Assembly (NCBI GenBank): GCA_016933055.1
Contig: JAFGBS010000014.1
Coordinates: 150,568 to 214,567 of the forward strand
Length of the DNA: 64,000 nt
DNA from: Promethearchaeota archaeon
GTDB lineage: Archaea > Asgardarchaeota > Lokiarchaeia > Sigyniarchaeales > Promethearchaeaceae
Direction of reading: 5' to 3'
Part shown: piece by piece, positions 2,055 through 14,869 of the stretch
How the letters are laid out: every line of letters starts with the position of its first letter
Numbering within the stretch: the stretch's first letter is position 1
Notes under the pieces: generated by a model
Told to the model about the DNA's origin: nothing
The model's input: only the letters and a program-made list of their open reading frames with translations
Databases searched by the model: none
Program-made: the position numbers and the translations under genes

Positions 2055-3032
2055 CTAATATTTATTTTTTTTATATCCTAAATCTACCAGCATACCGTAT
2101 ACCAGAGCTAAGGCATTTCGGGTTGAAATACCTTTATAGACTTCTTTCAGATCTTCAGTCCGGTGGAAAGAAGAGCGTTCTAGAAACAATTCTTGTATTG
2201 TAGCTTCTACTACTGATCTTGTTGCTTTGAATTTTTCGTAGTTGTTCTTTACGAATTCCCGGAAGATGGGAACAAACTTTATTTGGTCCTCTACAATTAA
2301 TTTTACATCTTTTAAGCTAGTTACGGCACCGTAATGGCAAAATCCTGCGTTTTCTATTTCTAAACCTTGTATTTTCTTTAAGGATTGCATGTATTCCTCA
2401 TAATTGAATTCAGTTGGCATGCTTGTAGGAAGTGTCAACAATTCTTCCTTATTAAAGAGCGTTCCTGCAGCCTCTCCAAAGTAGGAGAAATACGTAGAAC
2501 CCTCCATAAAAATCGTTGGACAGACATGATCCTTGGTGTGCCCAGGAGTAGAAATTAAAGATAGTTCCAGTTCTCTCTCTTCATCCAGCAGAATTTTGGT
2601 ATCAGGTTCAATTAATTGAAAAAATCGATCGGGAATCGGTTCCATTCTACCTACAAACTCTCCGTATGTTGATCTTGCTGCTTTAAGATGATTTTCCGGA
2701 TGTTGCAGATAGGTTTTATGGAGTTCCGTAGCTAAGATCTTTATTTTTGGATTATATTTCTCTAATTTTGTGAGAATCTTCCAACCAGCTCCAAAGTGAT
2801 CAAAATGATGATGCGATGGAATAAGATATTTCACAGAATCTCGGGAAATATGATGTTTCCTCATATAAGAAAGTACTTTGCGATAATCATCTGAAGTGCC
2901 TACATCGAAAATAATCGTCGAATTATCCCAATGCAGCAAAAAACTACTGGTAATTTTACTCATACCATATTGATTTAGATCTATTAAATGTACTGATTCG
3001 ATAAATTCTCCAGCAGTGGAAATGATTGGCAT
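2055..3032 (-). CDS. Metallo-beta-lactamase-fold hydrolase
   Basis: The 325-residue protein carries the metal-binding signature SHHHFDHFGAGW near residue 93, a second histidine in STPGHTKDH, and later FCHYGA, which can supply the last histidine. This places it in the broad metallo-beta-lactamase hydrolase superfamily, whose members bind two metal ions and cleave thioesters, esters or phosphodiesters or act as flavodiiron-type oxidoreductases. No flavodoxin domain follows, so a hydrolase is more likely. It has no signal peptide and is presumably cytosolic. The substrate cannot be told from sequence. It is transcribed toward the thiolase gene and divergently from the HEAT-repeat gene. Confidence 0.8.
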   Translation of the reverse strand: MPIISTAGEFIESVHLIDLNQYGMSKITSSFLLHWDNSTIIFDVGTSDDYRKVLSYMRKHHISRDSVKYLIPSHHHFDHFGAGWKILTKLEKYNPKIKILATELHKTYLQHPENHLKAARSTYGEFVGRMEPIPDRFFQLIEPDTKILLDEERELELSLISTPGHTKDHVCPTIFMEGSTYFSYFGEAAGTLFNKEELLTLPTSMPTEFNYEEYMQSLKKIQGLEIENAGFCHYGAVTSLKDVKLIVEDQIKFVPIFREFVKNNYEKFKATRSVVEATIQELFLERSSFHRTEDLKEVYKGISTRNALALVYGMLVDLGYKKNKY

Positions 3033-3165
3033 TACACATTCCTTAATCTTTTCTATATAATAATTTTTTATAATCTGATTGTTATGGTATGTGTATTAAC
3101 AACGTTATCATCATCTTTATGATTTATTTACAACATACTCAAACATAACCGAGGATAAATAAAAT

Positions 3166-6087
3166 TTGAACCAGTCTCTCACACCCCAACTTAATGACGA
3201 AACCATCGATCTGATAGAATCCTATATAGCAAACCGAAATTATAATGATGTAATTGACATTTGTATCCAAATCGTTCAAGAAAACATCAAAACTCCCAAT
3301 AGAGAACAATTGTATGAAATAATTGAAAAAATTACCCTCATTTGTGATAAAACTCCTTTTATTGTAGACACCCTTGTCCCGTATCTGGGAGAGTTTTTAC
3401 AAGATTTGGATGAATGGCTAAGAACGGAATCCCTAATAATTACGGAAAGAATTAGTAAATATCGCCCCAACGTGTTAATTGAATTCATCCCCCTAATCAC
3501 CAATCGATTACAAGATGAAGATCAAAACAACCGTGAGATTGCTCTGAACATAATTGGAAATTTAAGTTTAAACCTACATCTTGATCGAGAGAATTTATTT
3601 ATCTTTATCCTGAATATGATGCAAGATAAATCATGGAAAATACGAATACGAGCAATCCAAATCAGTGAACAACTCCTAAAGAAAGAAAAAATACCAAATA
3701 AGAATCTTTTTCAAAAATATGTAGAAGGGATATCCAAATTAGTAGGAGATGAGGATGAGGAAGTCCAAGGTACTGCAATAGAAACACTCAAAAATATCAG
3801 TTTCTTGTTGGATTCCGAATCCTTTCTACAGATTACATCCCAGTTAGTAAATTCGTCAATTTGGCAAATAAGTGAGAAAGGAATTTGGTTGGTGGGGGAA
3901 GTAGGAGCAGATCAATATTCCAATGTATCATTAATAGCCCCCAGATTACCTAATCTCCTAAATAATCCTAATTTAATGATCCAAACAAAAGTAATTGATG
4001 CATTGGTAAAAATCGGTCGTGTACATACAGAAAAAATACTGGAGATCATTTTTAACAATGTGCACACTAAAGAAAAGGAGATTTATGACGGTTTATTCGA
4101 TATATTTTTGTATTTAGGAATAGAACGACCCGATGCAGTTCTCCAGCGAGCCTTTGAACATTTAGAAGACCCAGATCGTTCAATTCGGATGTTTATTTCA
4201 GATGTTCTAAACAAATTCAAAGAGGAAGCTGTGGGCAAAATCGAGGAACAAGTAGCGTCACTATTTGCACGTTTACGCACTACTGATTGGCGACAGCGGC
4301 AACATATTGTGGAAATTCTAGGCTCACTCAATGGTGTTATAAAGGTCAACAGTATTGCAGTGTGGTCTTATCTCACCCTTAAATCGATCTCAGAGAATGA
4401 GGTCGATCCTGAGGTTAAGGACACCATCCATTCAGCATTAGAACGGATACAGAGTTCCATTGATGATATAGAGATAATTATTAGAGAAGTTGAAGTACAT
4501 CAAAACTTCTTTTATCGTGAAATATTGGAATTACAGAATTTACCAAAACAATTACGCGACAATATGCTCATCATTATCGAAAAAAACGAATTTCGGGAAG
4601 CATTATTGATTCTGGAACGAGAAATAAATAAAGCTATCAAAAAAATCGAATCATTTGGGGATCGGTTAGATGAATATGAATACAAAAGATTAGCTGTGGA
4701 TTTAATAGAAGATTGGTCATATACTCGATTGGATTTATTGGAGCAAATAGGAGACATAAAAAATTATATTAAAGAGAGTGTAGAAAATGCAAAACAGCGA
4801 TATATTACCCAACTGTACGAGAAAATCCAACGAGTAAAAGCACGAATTGATGTATTGAAGTCTGAAATGGAAGACATCATCAATTTAAATTCCCAGCTAA
4901 AACATCTCATCCAAATAGGTGAAGAGGAACGTGCTAAGAAAAAATTGGAACACCTTGCATACATCCGAGATAAGATTTTTCGTTTAGAAGCAGAAATAGG
5001 ACAAATTTGGATTGAAAATCTTGATTTTAAAGAAGAACTCAAAGATATTACTCTATATTGGGTTAATGCAAAAATTGAAGCCCAACAATTATTGTATTCC
5101 ATAAGTTACAATCTGAAAAGTATCCATACCAGTTTTAAAGATAGTAAAAAACAAAAAAATGCACTAAAAAAGGAAATTTCCTTTGAACTATTATTAAATC
5201 AATATCAAAACTTAATTCTTCAGTCTAGCAGTAACGTCCGTGATCAGTTCGAGCGGTTTTCCATTATCACATCCCCTGTTGTGGACGAAATTAAAAAAGG
5301 GAGTTATGATAATGCGACAGATTTGCTAAAATTAACCATTTCCCAAACAGTCACTAGTATTCAAGATTTTGATAAGGAAATCATAAAAATTTATGATCAA
5401 TTAGATAAGATGGAAGGGGATTTTGAAAAATCTAAAATGATTCGGTCATATATGGAAGATTGGATTCAGATTAAAGATTCATTGATTGAACGTAGTAATG
5501 AATTTTTCCAGCAGACATCTCAAGACATCTTTTTCCATCGTATAATAGATCTACAAAAATACATCAATCCTATCCCTATTGATCTCTTAAGCAAACATTT
5601 GAAAACGGAATATACTGAATCTCAATTACTTGAAAAATTGTTTAAACTCATTGAAAATGGAACTTTACAAGGTAAGATCCGAGATAATAAGTTATACTTA
5701 CCCGAAAAACATCCTGAATACGAAAATGTATTACAGATTTCCAAAAAAATCGAAACTTTAGGTAATTTCGTTCATTTTAAAATACGGTTGCAAAATACAA
5801 CACGTCACTTCTTGCAAAATCTATCAATATTATTTTCTTGGCCGGTATTTATGGAACTCCAAGAAGAACGTAGTAAACCTAACTGGATGGAGATTAAGGA
5901 ACTTCAAGCGGAAGAAATCCAAATTTTTAATTGGGTATTGAAATATCGTCACGATAACATGATTAAATCCTCTGAACGATTGGGAGTAACTTCAAGAATA
6001 GGAGAATTAAAAGTTATTATACGCTATACCAATTTCTTCGGAGTTCAAAAGGAAATTCGAAAGGAACTTGAGGTGTTCATCCCATAA
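3166..6087 (+). CDS. HEAT-repeat / coiled-coil / winged-helix / beta-sandwich protein, adaptin-like layout
   Basis: A TTG-started protein of 973 residues. Residues about 50-430 are helical repeats of HEAT type, for example LQDEDQNNREIALNIIGNL and LEDPDRSIRMFISDVL. Residues 430-800 are long charged helices with coiled-coil character. Residues about 800-848 (PIDLLSKHLKTEYTESQLLE onward) look like a small winged helix of the kind that closes PCI domains. The last 110 residues are beta-rich, with HFKIRLQNTTRHFLQNLSI and LKVIIRYTN, and resemble an immunoglobulin-like appendage. There is no signal peptide or membrane segment. HEAT trunk, flexible middle and C-terminal ear is the layout of adaptor and coatomer large subunits. 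That likeness is my inference, not a family assignment. It may instead be a generic Asgard scaffold. Confidence 0.6.
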   Translation: MNQSLTPQLNDETIDLIESYIANRNYNDVIDICIQIVQENIKTPNREQLYEIIEKITLICDKTPFIVDTLVPYLGEFLQDLDEWLRTESLIITERISKYRPNVLIEFIPLITNRLQDEDQNNREIALNIIGNLSLNLHLDRENLFIFILNMMQDKSWKIRIRAIQISEQLLKKEKIPNKNLFQKYVEGISKLVGDEDEEVQGTAIETLKNISFLLDSESFLQITSQLVNSSIWQISEKGIWLVGEVGADQYSNVSLIAPRLPNLLNNPNLMIQTKVIDALVKIGRVHTEKILEIIFNNVHTKEKEIYDGLFDIFLYLGIERPDAVLQRAFEHLEDPDRSIRMFISDVLNKFKEEAVGKIEEQVASLFARLRTTDWRQRQHIVEILGSLNGVIKVNSIAVWSYLTLKSISENEVDPEVKDTIHSALERIQSSIDDIEIIIREVEVHQNFFYREILELQNLPKQLRDNMLIIIEKNEFREALLILEREINKAIKKIESFGDRLDEYEYKRLAVDLIEDWSYTRLDLLEQIGDIKNYIKESVENAKQRYITQLYEKIQRVKARIDVLKSEMEDIINLNSQLKHLIQIGEEERAKKKLEHLAYIRDKIFRLEAEIGQIWIENLDFKEELKDITLYWVNAKIEAQQLLYSISYNLKSIHTSFKDSKKQKNALKKEISFELLLNQYQNLILQSSSNVRDQFERFSIITSPVVDEIKKGSYDNATDLLKLTISQTVTSIQDFDKEIIKIYDQLDKMEGDFEKSKMIRSYMEDWIQIKDSLIERSNEFFQQTSQDIFFHRIIDLQKYINPIPIDLLSKHLKTEYTESQLLEKLFKLIENGTLQGKIRDNKLYLPEKHPEYENVLQISKKIETLGNFVHFKIRLQNTTRHFLQNLSILFSWPVFMELQEERSKPNWMEIKELQAEEIQIFNWVLKYRHDNMIKSSERLGVTSRIGELKVIIRYTNFFGVQKEIRKELEVFIP

Positions 6088-7859: not shown

Positions 7860-9449
7860 TTGACTGAGGATCCTAGTAAATATACTGAAGATGACTGGCA
7901 TAAGCTCTATACAGAAGAAACTGGTAAGAAGGCAATATGGGGAGGTAAAATCACCAAACTGTATTTAACTTGGTTACAAAATAAAAAACAAGAGCTCGGT
8001 TTGGTTGATGAAACACCAAAATCAAAAGGGTCTACTAAAAAAACTAAAGAATCATCTACAATCAAACCAGAACCTTCAACCAAAGAAAAGCCGAAACTAA
8101 AAAAAAAGGAAGTAGAAACTGAACCTATTGCCCAAAAAAAATCTGAAGAAAAACCAACTGAAAAATCAAAATCAAAGAAGAAGAAAGGGGAAAAAGGATC
8201 AAGCCTCCAAGCAGAAACGAATGTTGGTATGGTGGGGCATGTAGACCACGGAAAAACAACGCTTGTTGATGCTCTTTCGGGTGAATGGACAGATAGATAT
8301 CAAAAAGAAAGAGAACAAGGTATAAGTATTAAATTAGGATATGCTAATTGCGTAATAGCTTATTGTCCAAGTTGTGATAAGTACGTAACCTACCATCTTG
8401 CTAATGCTTTAAAAAAAAAGAAACAAAAACGAAATACTTGCCCCGATTGTGCAGGAGAATTGACTTTTTGTAGGAAAATTAGTTTTGTGGATGCCCCCGG
8501 GCATGAAATCTTGATGGCTACTATGCTTAGTGGAGCAAGTTTAATGGATGGGGCATGTTTATTGATTTCGGCAAGCGAAAAATGCCCTCAACCTCAAACA
8601 CGGGAACACTTAGCAGCTCTAGATATTTCTGGTATCGATAAAATTATCATTGTTCAAAATAAGATTGATATGGTATCAAGGGAACGAGCAATTGAAAACT
8701 ATAAAGAAATTAAGAAATTCATTAAAGGAACAATTGCTGAAAATGCTCCAATAATTCCTATTTCTGCAATTTATAAAATCAATATCGAGGAAGTCCTTCG
8801 AAAGATTCAAGAAATAATTCCGACCCCCGATTTTGATGAAAACAAACCCCCACAATTCCATATAGCTCGAAGTTTTGATGTTAATAAACCCGGTACAGCG
8901 ATAGAAGAACTAAGAGGAGGAGTGGTTGGAGGATCAATTTCCCAAGGGGTGTTACAAATTGGAGATAAAATCGAGATCCGTCCTGGAATAAAACGTAGTA
9001 ATAAGTTTGAGCCATTAAAAACCAATGTGACCAGTATTTATCAAGGTGATATACCTTTAGATTCTGCACACCCCGGTGGATTGATTGCGATCGGAACAAC
9101 TTTAGATCCCTCATTAACAAAAGCGGATAATTTAATTGGGAACCTTGCTGGTATCATTGATAATCTTCCCGATGTTCAAAATCAATGTGAAATCGAAGTG
9201 CATCTTCTCGATAAAGTCTTAGGGGCTGAAGAAGAGATTGAGGTAACTCCCTTAAAAATTGGAGAACCAATGCTTTTAGTAACAGGCACATTATTGACCG
9301 CGGGTATCATCCAAAAGATTGGAAAGAAGAACAGAGTAGCTTTTAATCTCAAAAGACCGCTCTGCGCGGAAGTTGGAGCTACTGTGGCTATCAGTCGCCC
9401 CATTCGGAAGAGATACCGATTAATTGGTTACGGTATCCTCCGAACATAA
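7860..9449 (+). CDS. Translation initiation factor aIF2 gamma subunit with N-terminal extension
   Basis: aIF2-gamma is the GTPase subunit of the heterotrimer that delivers initiator Met-tRNA to the small ribosomal subunit. The G1 motif GHVDHGKT (about residues 126-133), switch II region DAPGHE, and NKID are all visible. The gamma-specific zinc knuckle CPSC...CPDC interrupts the G domain as in other archaeal and eukaryotic gamma subunits, and two beta-barrel domains follow. The odd part is roughly 118 residues before the G domain: a compact aromatic segment (YTEDDWHKLYTEETGKKAIW) and then a lysine/glutamate-rich linker. Most archaeal gamma subunits start almost at the G domain. The start is a TTG with little room for an alternative upstream. 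It converges with the E2 gene. Confidence 0.93.
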   Translation: MTEDPSKYTEDDWHKLYTEETGKKAIWGGKITKLYLTWLQNKKQELGLVDETPKSKGSTKKTKESSTIKPEPSTKEKPKLKKKEVETEPIAQKKSEEKPTEKSKSKKKKGEKGSSLQAETNVGMVGHVDHGKTTLVDALSGEWTDRYQKEREQGISIKLGYANCVIAYCPSCDKYVTYHLANALKKKKQKRNTCPDCAGELTFCRKISFVDAPGHEILMATMLSGASLMDGACLLISASEKCPQPQTREHLAALDISGIDKIIIVQNKIDMVSRERAIENYKEIKKFIKGTIAENAPIIPISAIYKINIEEVLRKIQEIIPTPDFDENKPPQFHIARSFDVNKPGTAIEELRGGVVGGSISQGVLQIGDKIEIRPGIKRSNKFEPLKTNVTSIYQGDIPLDSAHPGGLIAIGTTLDPSLTKADNLIGNLAGIIDNLPDVQNQCEIEVHLLDKVLGAEEEIEVTPLKIGEPMLLVTGTLLTAGIIQKIGKKNRVAFNLKRPLCAEVGATVAISRPIRKRYRLIGYGILRT

Positions 9450-9473: not shown

Positions 9474-9983
9474 CTAATCCATCGCGTATTTTTTTGTGTA
9501 ATCACGAGCTTGCTTATTGAATCGTTCAGGAGACCTCAATGCTTGCTCTCCCGCTTCATGATTCAATGGATCACCAGGATTGTAAAAAGGAGGTTCCATA
9601 TGAATCATTGCTCGAAGAGCTTCAATAATATTTGTCAAAGTTTTCGCCGGAGTCCATCCGCTTGCACCAGTGGTCTGATCTACCTTTCCAACAAGATCTG
9701 GATTAATGAGATCTAAGCAAATATTCAATTTTCCAGGGGGGATGGATGGATCAATGTTTGGATGCCACAAAAGTGTATGACAATAAGCATAAGGGGGACT
9801 GAAAGGATAATTTTCAGGTAATTTTATCTCAAAAATGAATTTACCCCCCTTATATGGTGTATTAGGTAGTCCTTTGATCGTCAATCGAATATGATCAACT
9901 GACATACCCCATGGTTCAATTAAAACTTCTTTATTAGAATTAAAAGCTTCTACAGATTCTTGATAATCAGTTTCTTCGCGCAT
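9474..9983 (-). CDS. Ubiquitin-conjugating enzyme E2 (UBC fold, catalytic cysteine present)
   Basis: This 169-residue protein has the complete E2 core. It shows YKGGKFIFEIKLPENYPFSPP (beta-strands and proline loop), the HPN tripeptide at 74-76, the catalytic cysteine at about residue 89 in KLNICLDL, the tryptophan in GWTPAKTL at 110, and the DPLNHEAG helix start near 138. E2s carry ubiquitin as a thioester and pass it to substrates, usually with a RING E3. HPN to cysteine spans 13 residues instead of the usual 8, and about 19 residues separate the cysteine from the tryptophan, so the active-site rim is enlarged. No ubiquitin, E1 or deubiquitinase is adjacent. A RING-type candidate lies about 27 kb away. 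Confidence 0.93.
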   Translation of the reverse strand: MREETDYQESVEAFNSNKEVLIEPWGMSVDHIRLTIKGLPNTPYKGGKFIFEIKLPENYPFSPPYAYCHTLLWHPNIDPSIPPGKLNICLDLINPDLVGKVDQTTGASGWTPAKTLTNIIEALRAMIHMEPPFYNPGDPLNHEAGEQALRSPERFNKQARDYTKKYAMD

Positions 9984-11095: not shown

Positions 11096-14000
11096 TTATT
11101 TCTCAAACAGAATTTTTTCTTCTTCAAAAACTGGGATGATTTGTAATAAACTCCATGCACTATTGATCATAGAACTATAATTGATAGCCCTCGCATCAAT
11201 ATATAAGCTCAATAATTTTACTGGAAAGGTTTCTTTTAACACCTTTTCTGCAAAACCAATTCTTCCGAGGAAGTTATATAAGTATGATTTAATAGGATCG
11301 ATTGTTACTGATGATTTCAGTAAACTCAAGGCGCCCAATAATACTAGCACACTTACAGTATCATAATCTCGCTTAGCGGTTTGGTTAATTGCTAAATCAA
11401 AATACTCGGATGCAGCTTTCTGATATTCTTTATTCTTTAGAGCCTCCAATAGATTGCGATATACTAGCCGTTTTAATGCATTTCGCTTTCTGAATGAATC
11501 TTCCAGGCGTTCTTTATCCTCTGCTTTTCTTTTATTTAAAATCGAAAGTTGTTGTTTCTGTAACACCATAGATTCAGTTTCTTCTTGTTTTTTCTCAAAT
11601 TGGATTTTATTTATTTCAGTTCTCTTACTTGGGCTAATTTCATTAAGTAATAACCCTCGCTCAACATCTAATAATGGAAGGTATTTGTAAAATGCTTCTA
11701 GGATCAAATCTACTTTTTCTTCGTCTTGAAGTTGGTGAGAGACTAATAAAGCTTCGAGAAGTTTATATTCTGGTTTATTTTGGATGATATCTCGGGGCAA
11801 TGGGACCTCCATAATGGTTTTTTCAAGATTACGTTTTGCTTCCAATCTTTTTCCCACTTTAAGTAAGCAGATTACCCCCATCATTAAACTGATTGGGAAA
11901 AATTCCTCGTGATCGTTTTTTATTAGGAGATCTATACTATTGAAATATTCTCTTGCTGCATCCGTATAATTTTGGGTTCTGATATTATTATTAGCGTCTA
12001 ACCAATATTTATCAAGAAGTGTTCCTCGCTTTATCGACGAGATTTCCTTGGTTTTCAGTTTTTCAATGTGTTTATTGATTATGACCTCACTTATATGGGA
12101 AGGATCGAATTGATCTGGCTGGACTTTCTCTCCTTCTCTTTTATCAGGTTTGACTATTTCATGCAATGCATTTTTCTCTTCCCGAAACAGTGCTAAATTT
12201 TCAAATAATTTAATCGCTTGCAGATGAATTGACTGATCTGGATAATCCAACAAGGTAATGATGAAATCAACCACTTGGGAAACAAAACCTTGAGTTCTAT
12301 TATATTTTTTGCGTAAAGGAATTAATCCCTCTTTATTTTTTAATATGAAAAATAGGATTGTGATGACCGCAAGATCAATCTCAGCTAAATCCATTTTTCT
12401 TTGACTGAGTAATGATCCCATTTGTTTTTCATAGCCTTCTAGTGCTTTATCATAATTCTTATTATCCAATAGGTTCAAGAATTCTTGGTAATTTAATCTT
12501 TTATATCCTTGACGACGAGATAATGTGTCTTGTTGTCTTAACAATTCTTCTTGTGCCATCTGTCTGAGACGAGAGAGTTTTTCTACCATCATATGAATCT
12601 CTTCATCTCTCATTTTTTCCGCTTTTCTCTCCTTGTTAATTTCCTCCTCAATAGCATCAATCTTTTTGTGGATTCTCTTTTGAATGCCTTTATTTTTGAT
12701 TTTACTATTTATTAAAGAAGTTTCACTTAATTCTTTTAAAATATCTTTCAAGAAAGCCTCATCAAGCCCGAGTTTACTACCTGTTGAATTTGTCAATTCT
12801 TTTTCTTTCAGTTTGTTTTCCATTTGTGAAAGATGGCGTTGAGCAATTTCCTCTAATATAAAATCATAATCCAGAGGATCCCTCTCTGATAACCTTTGAT
12901 ATACCATTTCTGCTTGTTTAAGCAAATCCAGAACAGTTTGTGCTTCCTCCAAACCCGAAGAAGTAGCGAGTAGCTTTTTTGCTCTACCAGTGAGAAATTT
13001 TACATATAATCTTTCCAGATCCTTAGTTTCATCATATAATAAATGATTTCGATATAATTTTGCGTAATTTTCTAATATCTGGTTAACTTTGTCTAATGAT
13101 TCCTCACTTTCTGTTAAAATTTCAATTTTATTTTGAATTTTACCGATGCTACGCTTTAGATAATCCTCCCGTGTTTCATTTCGTAGATTTATCATTTCGT
13201 GAAGAAATGGTAAAAACATTCCTGAATCTAAATATAAATCCAGTAAATGAATCAATAGTTCGTTATTGATCTTAGCATGTCCTACATTTTTGAACCAATC
13301 TGCACGTTTTTTAATTTCAGAAGTTGCTTCTAATATTTTATCCGCTTTTTTTAATTCCTCGATCTGTCTATATAATTTTTCATTAGCTTGGATAAATTCA
13401 GTTTTTTCTTTTTCTACATATTTCTTTAATACAGAAATAGCATTAGTGTAATGAGTTATTGCCGAATCAATACGATTTTTGCGATATTCTTCTTCAGCAG
13501 ATTGTCGTAATTCTGTTAATTCTTTTTGAATAGGATATGACTGTACATAATTGATCAATTTATCCACAATCGAAAATTGGTTTTTGTTCAGAAATAGTAT
13601 GGCAATACTGCGTATACTATCATCTACATCCTCTCGATCAATGTGGAAGGTCTCCCAAATGTTGAATAACTCTTCAAGAGTAAGATTTGCTGAATCAGGA
13701 TCATTTTCCTTAATATATTGATTTAGTAAAATTCTGAGTACAATGACAATTTTCTCACCCAGTATTTTAATTTCATCGAACAACCCCATCCTTTGATACT
13801 TATCTATTGTAAAATACAATTGCCCTTTTACAATATCATAACGTTTTTCTTCAATTAACCGATCCACTGCTCTTGCTATACCTGGAGTTAAGTCTTGCAT
13901 TAATTCCTTTTGTTCTTTGAAGTCCAATTTCTCCATCAATTGGAACGCATTTTGAAATTCAGTTGAGGTAATCCACGTAGTTATTGCTAATTTTAGGGAC

Positions 14001-14869
14001 TTCTCAGCTAGCTCTTCATCATTTAGTTCTATAGATGCGTATAAATATGCTTTCTCAAACTTTTCTGCTGCTGTGTGATATCTTTTCATATTGAACAGGC
14101 GGGATCCTTGATGAACAAGATTTTCTACATAGATACGGACAAATTTCTCAGAATAAACACTAACTCCTTGTAACACAGTGGACGCTTTCAAATATTCTCC
14201 CGATTTATAATATAACCATGCAGCTTGTTCTGCATTTATGAAATAATCTTGTTTTGAGAACTTTTTCTTCATGTTGGTTAAAATTTCAGCAAGATTCCCC
14301 GCATCCTCATATCGTTCATCTACAAGCAACCGATTGATTTTTTCCATGAAAAAGGGAATTCTCATCCATGCAGTTTCTACGTTAATAGGGATATTTCCAG
14401 TTATCATTGCTTCCGAAAGACATTCTAATACTTCATAAAATGTATTTTTCGAATAAAAATCAAACACAAATGCCTCAATGAGATAATTTTCCCATATGTA
14501 TTCTAACAGGAAGTTGGATGGAACATAAATTAATCCGCTGCGAGTGTAGAACACCACAATAATAGGTATAGTTCGACCCAATTTCTGAATAATATCTATT
14601 ATTAATTCGAATAACTCAAATTGTTGCACATCGTTAGGATCCAAGAAGTATAAAATGCCATCGGAAGTAGGAATAATACTGTCGAAATCAACTGTAGAAC
14701 TTAATACAACATCAATATCAATAACAGCTTGATCTGTTCCCACATTAACTCCTCTATTCCACCGGGAAATCTCATGATCCTTAAATTGGTGGTTCAATTT
14801 TCCTGTTTTTATCAATTGTAGACCAAGATTTGAATCACCTAAACTCAGTACTTTGAAGATATACCTCAT
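11096..14869 (-). CDS. Degenerate small-GTPase-like domain fused to about 1100 residues of helical (TPR-like) repeats
   Basis: The N-terminus FKVLSLGDSNLGLQLIKTG mirrors the first strand and P-loop of Ras-like GTPases (GDSxVGKT), but the lysine and serine/threonine that bind phosphate are replaced. The region to about residue 165 keeps an alternating strand/helix pattern (DGILYFLDPND, IPIIVVFYTRSG, AFVFDFYSKNTFYEVLECL) without an NKxD motif, so nucleotide binding is doubtful. The remaining 1100 residues are helical pairs of TPR type (EQAAWLYYKSGEYLKASTVL, GSRLFNMKRYHTAAEKFEKA) with a highly charged coiled-coil section near 740-830. No signal peptide or membrane helix is present. It is likely a cytosolic scaffold. 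The precise family is unrecognised. Confidence 0.6.
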   Translation of the reverse strand: MRYIFKVLSLGDSNLGLQLIKTGKLNHQFKDHEISRWNRGVNVGTDQAVIDIDVVLSSTVDFDSIIPTSDGILYFLDPNDVQQFELFELIIDIIQKLGRTIPIIVVFYTRSGLIYVPSNFLLEYIWENYLIEAFVFDFYSKNTFYEVLECLSEAMITGNIPINVETAWMRIPFFMEKINRLLVDERYEDAGNLAEILTNMKKKFSKQDYFINAEQAAWLYYKSGEYLKASTVLQGVSVYSEKFVRIYVENLVHQGSRLFNMKRYHTAAEKFEKAYLYASIELNDEELAEKSLKLAITTWITSTEFQNAFQLMEKLDFKEQKELMQDLTPGIARAVDRLIEEKRYDIVKGQLYFTIDKYQRMGLFDEIKILGEKIVIVLRILLNQYIKENDPDSANLTLEELFNIWETFHIDREDVDDSIRSIAILFLNKNQFSIVDKLINYVQSYPIQKELTELRQSAEEEYRKNRIDSAITHYTNAISVLKKYVEKEKTEFIQANEKLYRQIEELKKADKILEATSEIKKRADWFKNVGHAKINNELLIHLLDLYLDSGMFLPFLHEMINLRNETREDYLKRSIGKIQNKIEILTESEESLDKVNQILENYAKLYRNHLLYDETKDLERLYVKFLTGRAKKLLATSSGLEEAQTVLDLLKQAEMVYQRLSERDPLDYDFILEEIAQRHLSQMENKLKEKELTNSTGSKLGLDEAFLKDILKELSETSLINSKIKNKGIQKRIHKKIDAIEEEINKERKAEKMRDEEIHMMVEKLSRLRQMAQEELLRQQDTLSRRQGYKRLNYQEFLNLLDNKNYDKALEGYEKQMGSLLSQRKMDLAEIDLAVITILFFILKNKEGLIPLRKKYNRTQGFVSQVVDFIITLLDYPDQSIHLQAIKLFENLALFREEKNALHEIVKPDKREGEKVQPDQFDPSHISEVIINKHIEKLKTKEISSIKRGTLLDKYWLDANNNIRTQNYTDAAREYFNSIDLLIKNDHEEFFPISLMMGVICLLKVGKRLEAKRNLEKTIMEVPLPRDIIQNKPEYKLLEALLVSHQLQDEEKVDLILEAFYKYLPLLDVERGLLLNEISPSKRTEINKIQFEKKQEETESMVLQKQQLSILNKRKAEDKERLEDSFRKRNALKRLVYRNLLEALKNKEYQKAASEYFDLAINQTAKRDYDTVSVLVLLGALSLLKSSVTIDPIKSYLYNFLGRIGFAEKVLKETFPVKLLSLYIDARAINYSSMINSAWSLLQIIPVFEEEKILFEK

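Follow-up and report, generated by a model that had tools for sequence, protein, structure and literature searches.

A probable second ubiquitin-like conjugation module in Lokiarchaeia and predicted bulge-helix-bulge introns in genes of a sister family

The gene described here, named E2-B, lies outside the ubiquitin cluster of its Lokiarchaeial genome and likely encodes an active E2 that serves a second ubiquitin-like conjugation module, one existing alongside the canonical Ub-E1-E2-JAB cluster of that genome. The case for this module is built on the sequence, fold, and conservation of E2-B, its genomic partners, and its linkage in relatives. With somewhat less confidence, we favor the broader reading that Lokiarchaeia have two ubiquitin-like pathways, the second comprising Ub-B, E1-B, E2-B, a RING-like protein, and a JAB protease, and that in one sister family (f3) the mRNAs of this second pathway and of aIF2-gamma would need the tRNA splicing endonuclease at several bulge-helix-bulge (BHB) introns of 29–39 nt.

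Asgard archaea are used to model the ubiquitin system that preceded eukaryotes and have been described with one Ub-E1-E2-RING-Rpn11 set per genome. Their ubiquitin clusters are known (PMC9192718; PMC5654768), archaeal mRNA introns have been documented for crenarchaeal cbf5 (PMC2738675), and other Asgard genomes have a high tRNA-intron content (PMC11291895). In the published, mainly open-access papers that were searched, neither a second E1/E2/Ub module nor mRNA introns in Asgard genes were found to be reported.

Sequence and Fold of E2-B

E2-B is an ATG-started ORF of 169 aa located in the window, the whole 64-kb stretch of DNA that was analyzed (Table 1). The Pfam profile UQ_con (PF00179) matched it with 89.6 bits against a curated cut-off of 27 (E = 1.8e-25), and the protein contains the HPN motif at residues 74–76, Cys89, the W110-T-P112 (WTP) loop, and DPLN at residues 138–141. 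In an alignment of 31 orthologs spanning the whole class, H74, P75, N76, C89, W110, and D138–N141 are invariant, which argues that the motif set is not due to chance, and T111 of the WTP loop is variable. The AlphaFold model (pLDDT 80.5, with loop 100–109 below 50) retrieved UbcH5-type E2s in Foldseek (E ~2e-11, TM ~0.7–0.8), indicating a UBC fold. Profile score, HPN and Cys, and fold all place E2-B in the E2 family (UBC, PF00179), and sequence and model together suggest that it is a genuine and probably active ubiquitin-conjugating enzyme. An earlier sequence-only reading of the locus had likewise described a complete, active-looking E2 with HPN, Cys89, W110, and DPLN, and the HPN-Cys spacing of 13 positions that it gave is correct (N76 to C89); its figure of about 19 residues between Cys and Trp captured the wide spacing but not the exact count, which is 20 between C89 and W110.

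Table 1. Features of the window and interrupted genes in relatives.
Feature	Position or locus	Strand	Basis
aIF2-gamma, convergent with E2-B	7860..9449	+	ORF; context only
E2-B, ubiquitin-conjugating enzyme outside the cluster	9474..9983	-	ORF, Pfam UQ_con, UBC fold, orthologs
Active-site insert, residues 94–109, NPDLVGKVDQTTGASG, between Cys89 and Trp110	9657..9704	-	Without counterpart in UbcH5/Ubc1
Catalytic Cys89 codon	9717..9719	-	Invariant in 31 orthologs; aligned with the UbcH5/Ubc1 catalytic Cys
HPN motif, residues 74–76	9756..9764	-	Invariant in 31 orthologs
Candidate cognate E3, UBC/RWD repeats and C-terminal RING-like Cys/His finger, 618 aa	37035..38891	-	Pfam, finger sequence, operon orthology
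Interrupted E2-B genes	L049, L053, L057, L065–L069, L071, L072, L115		29–39-nt inserts, BHB
Other interrupted genes	L112 (clustered E2); L033/L199, L046/L201, L053/L202, L203 (E1-B); L204 (Ub-B)		

Active-Site Rim and Insert

The sequence-only reading had singled out the enlarged active-site rim as a special feature of E2-B, a view that comparison with other E2s did not sustain. The N76–C89 spacing of 13 exceeds the 8 of UBE2G2 (sequence verified against PDB chains), and the C89–W110 spacing is 13 longer than in UBE2D but equal to that of human UBE2G2. In the clustered E2 that accompanies E2-B in the source genome, the HPN-Cys loop is longer still (HPN followed by 15 positions to the Cys; HPNFWPKPTEYSGQRNIC), and the Cys-Trp spacing is 14 positions. 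Since the rim of the clustered E2 is also long, large rims are common to Lokiarchaeal E2s, and a rim unique to E2-B was rejected. The element specific to E2-B is instead the conserved insert, which reads INPDLVGKVDxxTGASGW across the 31-sequence alignment and which, with two D and one K in NPDLVGKVDQTTGASG, is non-acidic.

The best PDB and fold match of E2-B is UbcH5/UBE2D, which conserves F61 and the WTP loop but lacks both active-site insertions of E2-B. E2-B shares with the Ubc7/UBE2G2-Cdc34 class the insert of 12–13 residues after the catalytic Cys, which in human UBE2G2 lies at the same place and gives the identical C89/W110 spacing. On the other hand, E2-B differs from this class in its HPN-Cys loop and in having its closest solved sequences among UBE2D and Ubc1, and because its loop is non-acidic, membership in the Ubc7/Cdc34 class is not claimed. 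The loop of UBE2G2 and Cdc34 tunes chain type or substrate choice, and by analogy the 16-residue insert and the longer HPN-Cys loop of E2-B are likely to cover the Cys as a lid with a similar role.

Phylogeny and Genomic Partners

When genome contigs were scanned, E2-B relatives were identified at 64 loci, which belong to Loki-, Hel-, and Sigynarchaeota and in almost every case show 61–75% identity, and orthologs are present in ~64 of the 83 genomes of the class. E2 scores across the phylum, grouped by hand tally, are bimodal, with full or large matches above 215 bits versus the clustered type and others at up to ~140 bits, and scores above 215 bits are confined to the class of the source genome. 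In the E2 tree, the kind of check proposed by the sequence-only reading, E2-B forms a clade of its own apart from the clustered E2s (support 100/97). E2-B is accordingly not an Asgard clustered (Caldiarchaeum-type) E2, which is another gene in another clade. It resembles the E2 of Caldiarchaeum subterraneum, encoded in a Ub-E1-E2-RING-Rpn11 operon (PMC5654768), and the clustered E2s of Asgard archaea (PMC9192718) in UBC fold, HPN, Cys, and RING-docking loop residues, and the systems are also alike in an E1 with its own Cys region and a JAB protease nearby. E2-B differs from the Asgard clustered E2s in sequence (~38–44% identity), clade, and possession of its own E1-B, and from both groups in being found only in the class of the source genome.

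The source genome carries a canonical cluster on contig C16, with consecutive genes for Ub (123 aa), E1 (415 aa), E2 (175 aa), and JAB (266 aa). The clustered Ub (L075:6960–7331) ends in TAG-M, with a single Gly instead of Gly-Gly. A second E1, E1-B (545 aa, with the motif AACTLKGIPRNR), is encoded on contig C27, and contig C17 encodes another ubiquitin, Ub-B (84 aa, with the terminus AGG-N). The genome has four JAB genes, and the one at C16:183911 is far less similar to the clustered JAB than to its counterpart in a Helarchaeota operon treated in the next section. The four parts of the E2-B module lie on separate contigs or 27 kb apart, and they are dispersed in the family of the source genome as well. 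The search for E1, ubiquitin, and other E2 genes that the sequence-only reading had recommended thus returned a full cluster together with E1-B and Ub-B, and an orphan E2 was rejected; the reading named a genome devoid of partners and a non-UBC fold as evidence against itself, and neither was encountered. Its proposal of a stand-alone or specialized E2 stands as far as the separate clade and the location outside the cluster are concerned, but E2-B is not partnerless and is separated from its partners only in the source genome and its family.

In relatives, E1-B occurs in the flank of E2-B at no fewer than 44 of the 64 loci, a minimum because flanks often end at contig ends. The two genes are convergent in 42 of the 44 linked loci, with a gap of 693–5613 nt (median ~1.7 kb). 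Both genes were found in 61 of the 83 genomes, E2-B only in 4, E1-B only in 8, and neither in 10 (Fisher p = 1.2e-5, based on hand tallies, uncorrected for kinship and incompleteness, and blurred by draft genomes). Linkage of an E2 to Ub-B is seen in one genome, where a 2.1-kb stretch (L206) holds Ub-B, an ORF with a Ub-B-like fusion, and another copy of E2-B, and additionally for divergent Cys-less paralogs adjoining Ub-like genes in genome G081.

The ORF between Ub-B and the E2-B copy (L206:777–1946) encodes 389 aa with a Ub-B-like domain near the C-terminus, and the paralogs in G081 (L210 and L128) have neither HPN nor the catalytic Cys. In family f4 (L207, L208, L214, and L215), E1-B combines two ThiF domains in one chain, in frames of 708–892 aa, and the Cys motif is in the second domain. 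This resembles the inactive-plus-active domain layout of UBA1 and bacterial BilD.

The Window and a Candidate RING-Like Partner

As the sequence-only reading stated, E2-B adjoins aIF2-gamma, and no ubiquitin, E1, or JAB (Rpn11) gene was met within the 64-kb window; that reading overlooked, however, a gene for an RWD/RING-like protein. The arrangement of aIF2-gamma beside the E2 was found at 0 of the 64 loci of relatives, so the neighborhood is not conserved, and a functional linkage between E2-B and aIF2-gamma was rejected. A 1257-aa protein encoded at 11096–14869 on the minus strand has a marginal ANAPC5-like TPR match.

The RWD/RING-like product matched Pfam UQ_con (8.2e-7) and RWD (0.0016) and ends in a finger of the form CVIC..CPEC..CPSC..HEHCW..CGFC, for which there was no Pfam RING match and only weak PDB matches. 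In Helarchaeota (L209), genes for an RWD and RING-like protein (850–2121), E1 (2228–3469), E2-B (3746–4249), and JAB (4251–5702) lie on one strand. The first gene of this operon is an ortholog of the window gene (37% identity, 8e-91), and the window protein is a candidate E3 or ubiquitin receptor.

Proposed Pathway

The thioester chemistry, the pairing of E1-B, Ub-B, and E3, and the substrates of the module are what we infer from these data. The last residue of Ub-B, behind AGG, would be removed first, and the trimmed Ub-B would be adenylated and then thioester-bound by E1-B, handed to E2-B at Cys89, and attached to lysines with the aid of the RING-like RWD protein, for which the window protein is the candidate; a JAB protease would undo the conjugation. 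The RWD protein may dock on F61 and the W110-T-P112 loop. RING domains contact loops 4 and 7 of known E2s (PMC5654768). F61 and P112 of E2-B lie on these loops, with P112 invariant and F61 replaced by Tyr in some orthologs.

Many eukaryotic E2s share UBA1, and E2-B could similarly be an extra E2 that relies on the clustered E1 and ubiquitin, with no separate pathway. The source genome has the full Ub, E1, E2, and JAB cluster to supply it, E2-B is unlinked from E1-B there and at L013, L018, and L041, and four genomes have E2-B without E1-B. We nevertheless consider this unlikely, given that at 44 of the 64 loci the E2 linked to E1-B is E2-B and not the clustered one, that the two genes co-occur, and that the N-terminal helix of E2-B is acidic, unlike that of the clustered E2. 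The N-terminal helix of known E2s binds E1, and its divergence in E2-B therefore fits a different E1. The least probable account, to which we give hardly any weight, is that E2-B is a degenerate, non-catalytic UBC protein that only binds ubiquitin in the manner of UEVs. In its favor, the same clade contains Cys-less relatives (L128 and L210, both in genome G081), but each of the 31 close orthologs, drawn from the whole class, retains HPN, Cys89, Trp110, and DPLN without change. Known UEVs (Vps23/TSG101 and Mms2) are missing the catalytic Cys and the non-canonical E2s UFC1, Atg3, and Atg10 are without HPN, and E2-B, with both invariant, differs from each. An active E2-B serving a second module remains the preferred reading.

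Interrupted Genes in Sister Family f3

In family f3, 11 E2-B genes from 10 genomes contain 14 inserts of 29–39 nt, including three in the single 169-codon gene of L072. The inserts break the frame or add stops, and excision of each restores the E2. A BHB (a 4-bp helix with two 3-nt bulges at the frame-restoring junctions) with all four central pairs is present at 13 of the 14 inserts, and no canonical BHB was found at the middle insert of L072. When the interiors were shuffled, an equal fit was obtained in at most 10 of 500 cases for 11 inserts and in 38 and 63 of 500 for two in L066. Inserts also occur in E1-B of four genomes (interrupted gene 531–540 aa) and, in one genome each, in Ub-B and the clustered E2; the latter two have 4/4 central pairs, and the remaining cases have 3/4 or are unresolved. 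No introns could be assigned to the stops in E1-B of genomes G013 and G018, and insert-like signals at L056, L015, and L027 were not counted for want of a convincing BHB.

aIF2-gamma, a gene with no relation to ubiquitin, served as a control and was found to be interrupted too: in 18 f3 genomes (L178–L195), an insert of 29 or 30 nt sits at the very same P-loop position (GHVDHG^KTT). All four central pairs are present in 15 of the 18 and three in the others. Across 13 distinct rows, 84% of cells are paired in the BHB structure versus 33–53% when it is slid, and the covariation score was reached by 0 of 500 shuffles, which ignore relatedness. Because aIF2-gamma is interrupted as well, the predicted introns belong to these relatives and not to ubiquitin genes alone. 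The E2-B and aIF2-gamma genes of the source genome itself are uninterrupted.

From their sequences, the inserts are predicted to be BHB introns removed by the splicing endonuclease; tiny introns of this type have hardly been described for protein-coding genes of archaea. Alternatively, the inserts could be scars of pseudogenes, errors in the assemblies, or elements bypassed during translation, and the drafts are indeed metagenome assemblies, with two or three inserts in some of the E2-B genes. Yet a BHB whose geometry fits the frame-restoring junctions exactly in five gene families, one identical site in 18 aIF2-gamma genes, the covariation and the loss of pairing upon sliding, exons that remain conserved, and the presence of two splicing-endonuclease genes in 8 of 10 genomes tested (source genome included) make such explanations very improbable. 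The predicted introns resemble those of crenarchaeal cbf5 (PMC2738675) as short BHB-type inserts in protein genes, associated with a two-subunit type of splicing endonuclease, but they occur in another phylum, in at least five other genes, and up to three per gene, and their BHB is mostly canonical rather than relaxed. In five genomes (G059:C7, G054:C133, G066:C56, G028:C9, and G042:C1), the distance between Ub-B and a gene for the tRNA splicing endonuclease is 6–30 kb, a proximity that may be plain synteny.

Implications

If Lokiarchaeia do have two parallel E1/E2/Ub sets, specialization of the kind seen among the Ub, NEDD8, and SUMO pathways would have begun, or have been reached independently, in archaea. 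The predicted introns of the relatives matter more widely than E2-B, as they recur in conserved Asgard genes, and BHB introns would lead standard gene callers to call such genes broken or missing. If f3 mRNAs do need BHB splicing, introns in protein genes would be a common feature of archaea that are closely related to eukaryotes.
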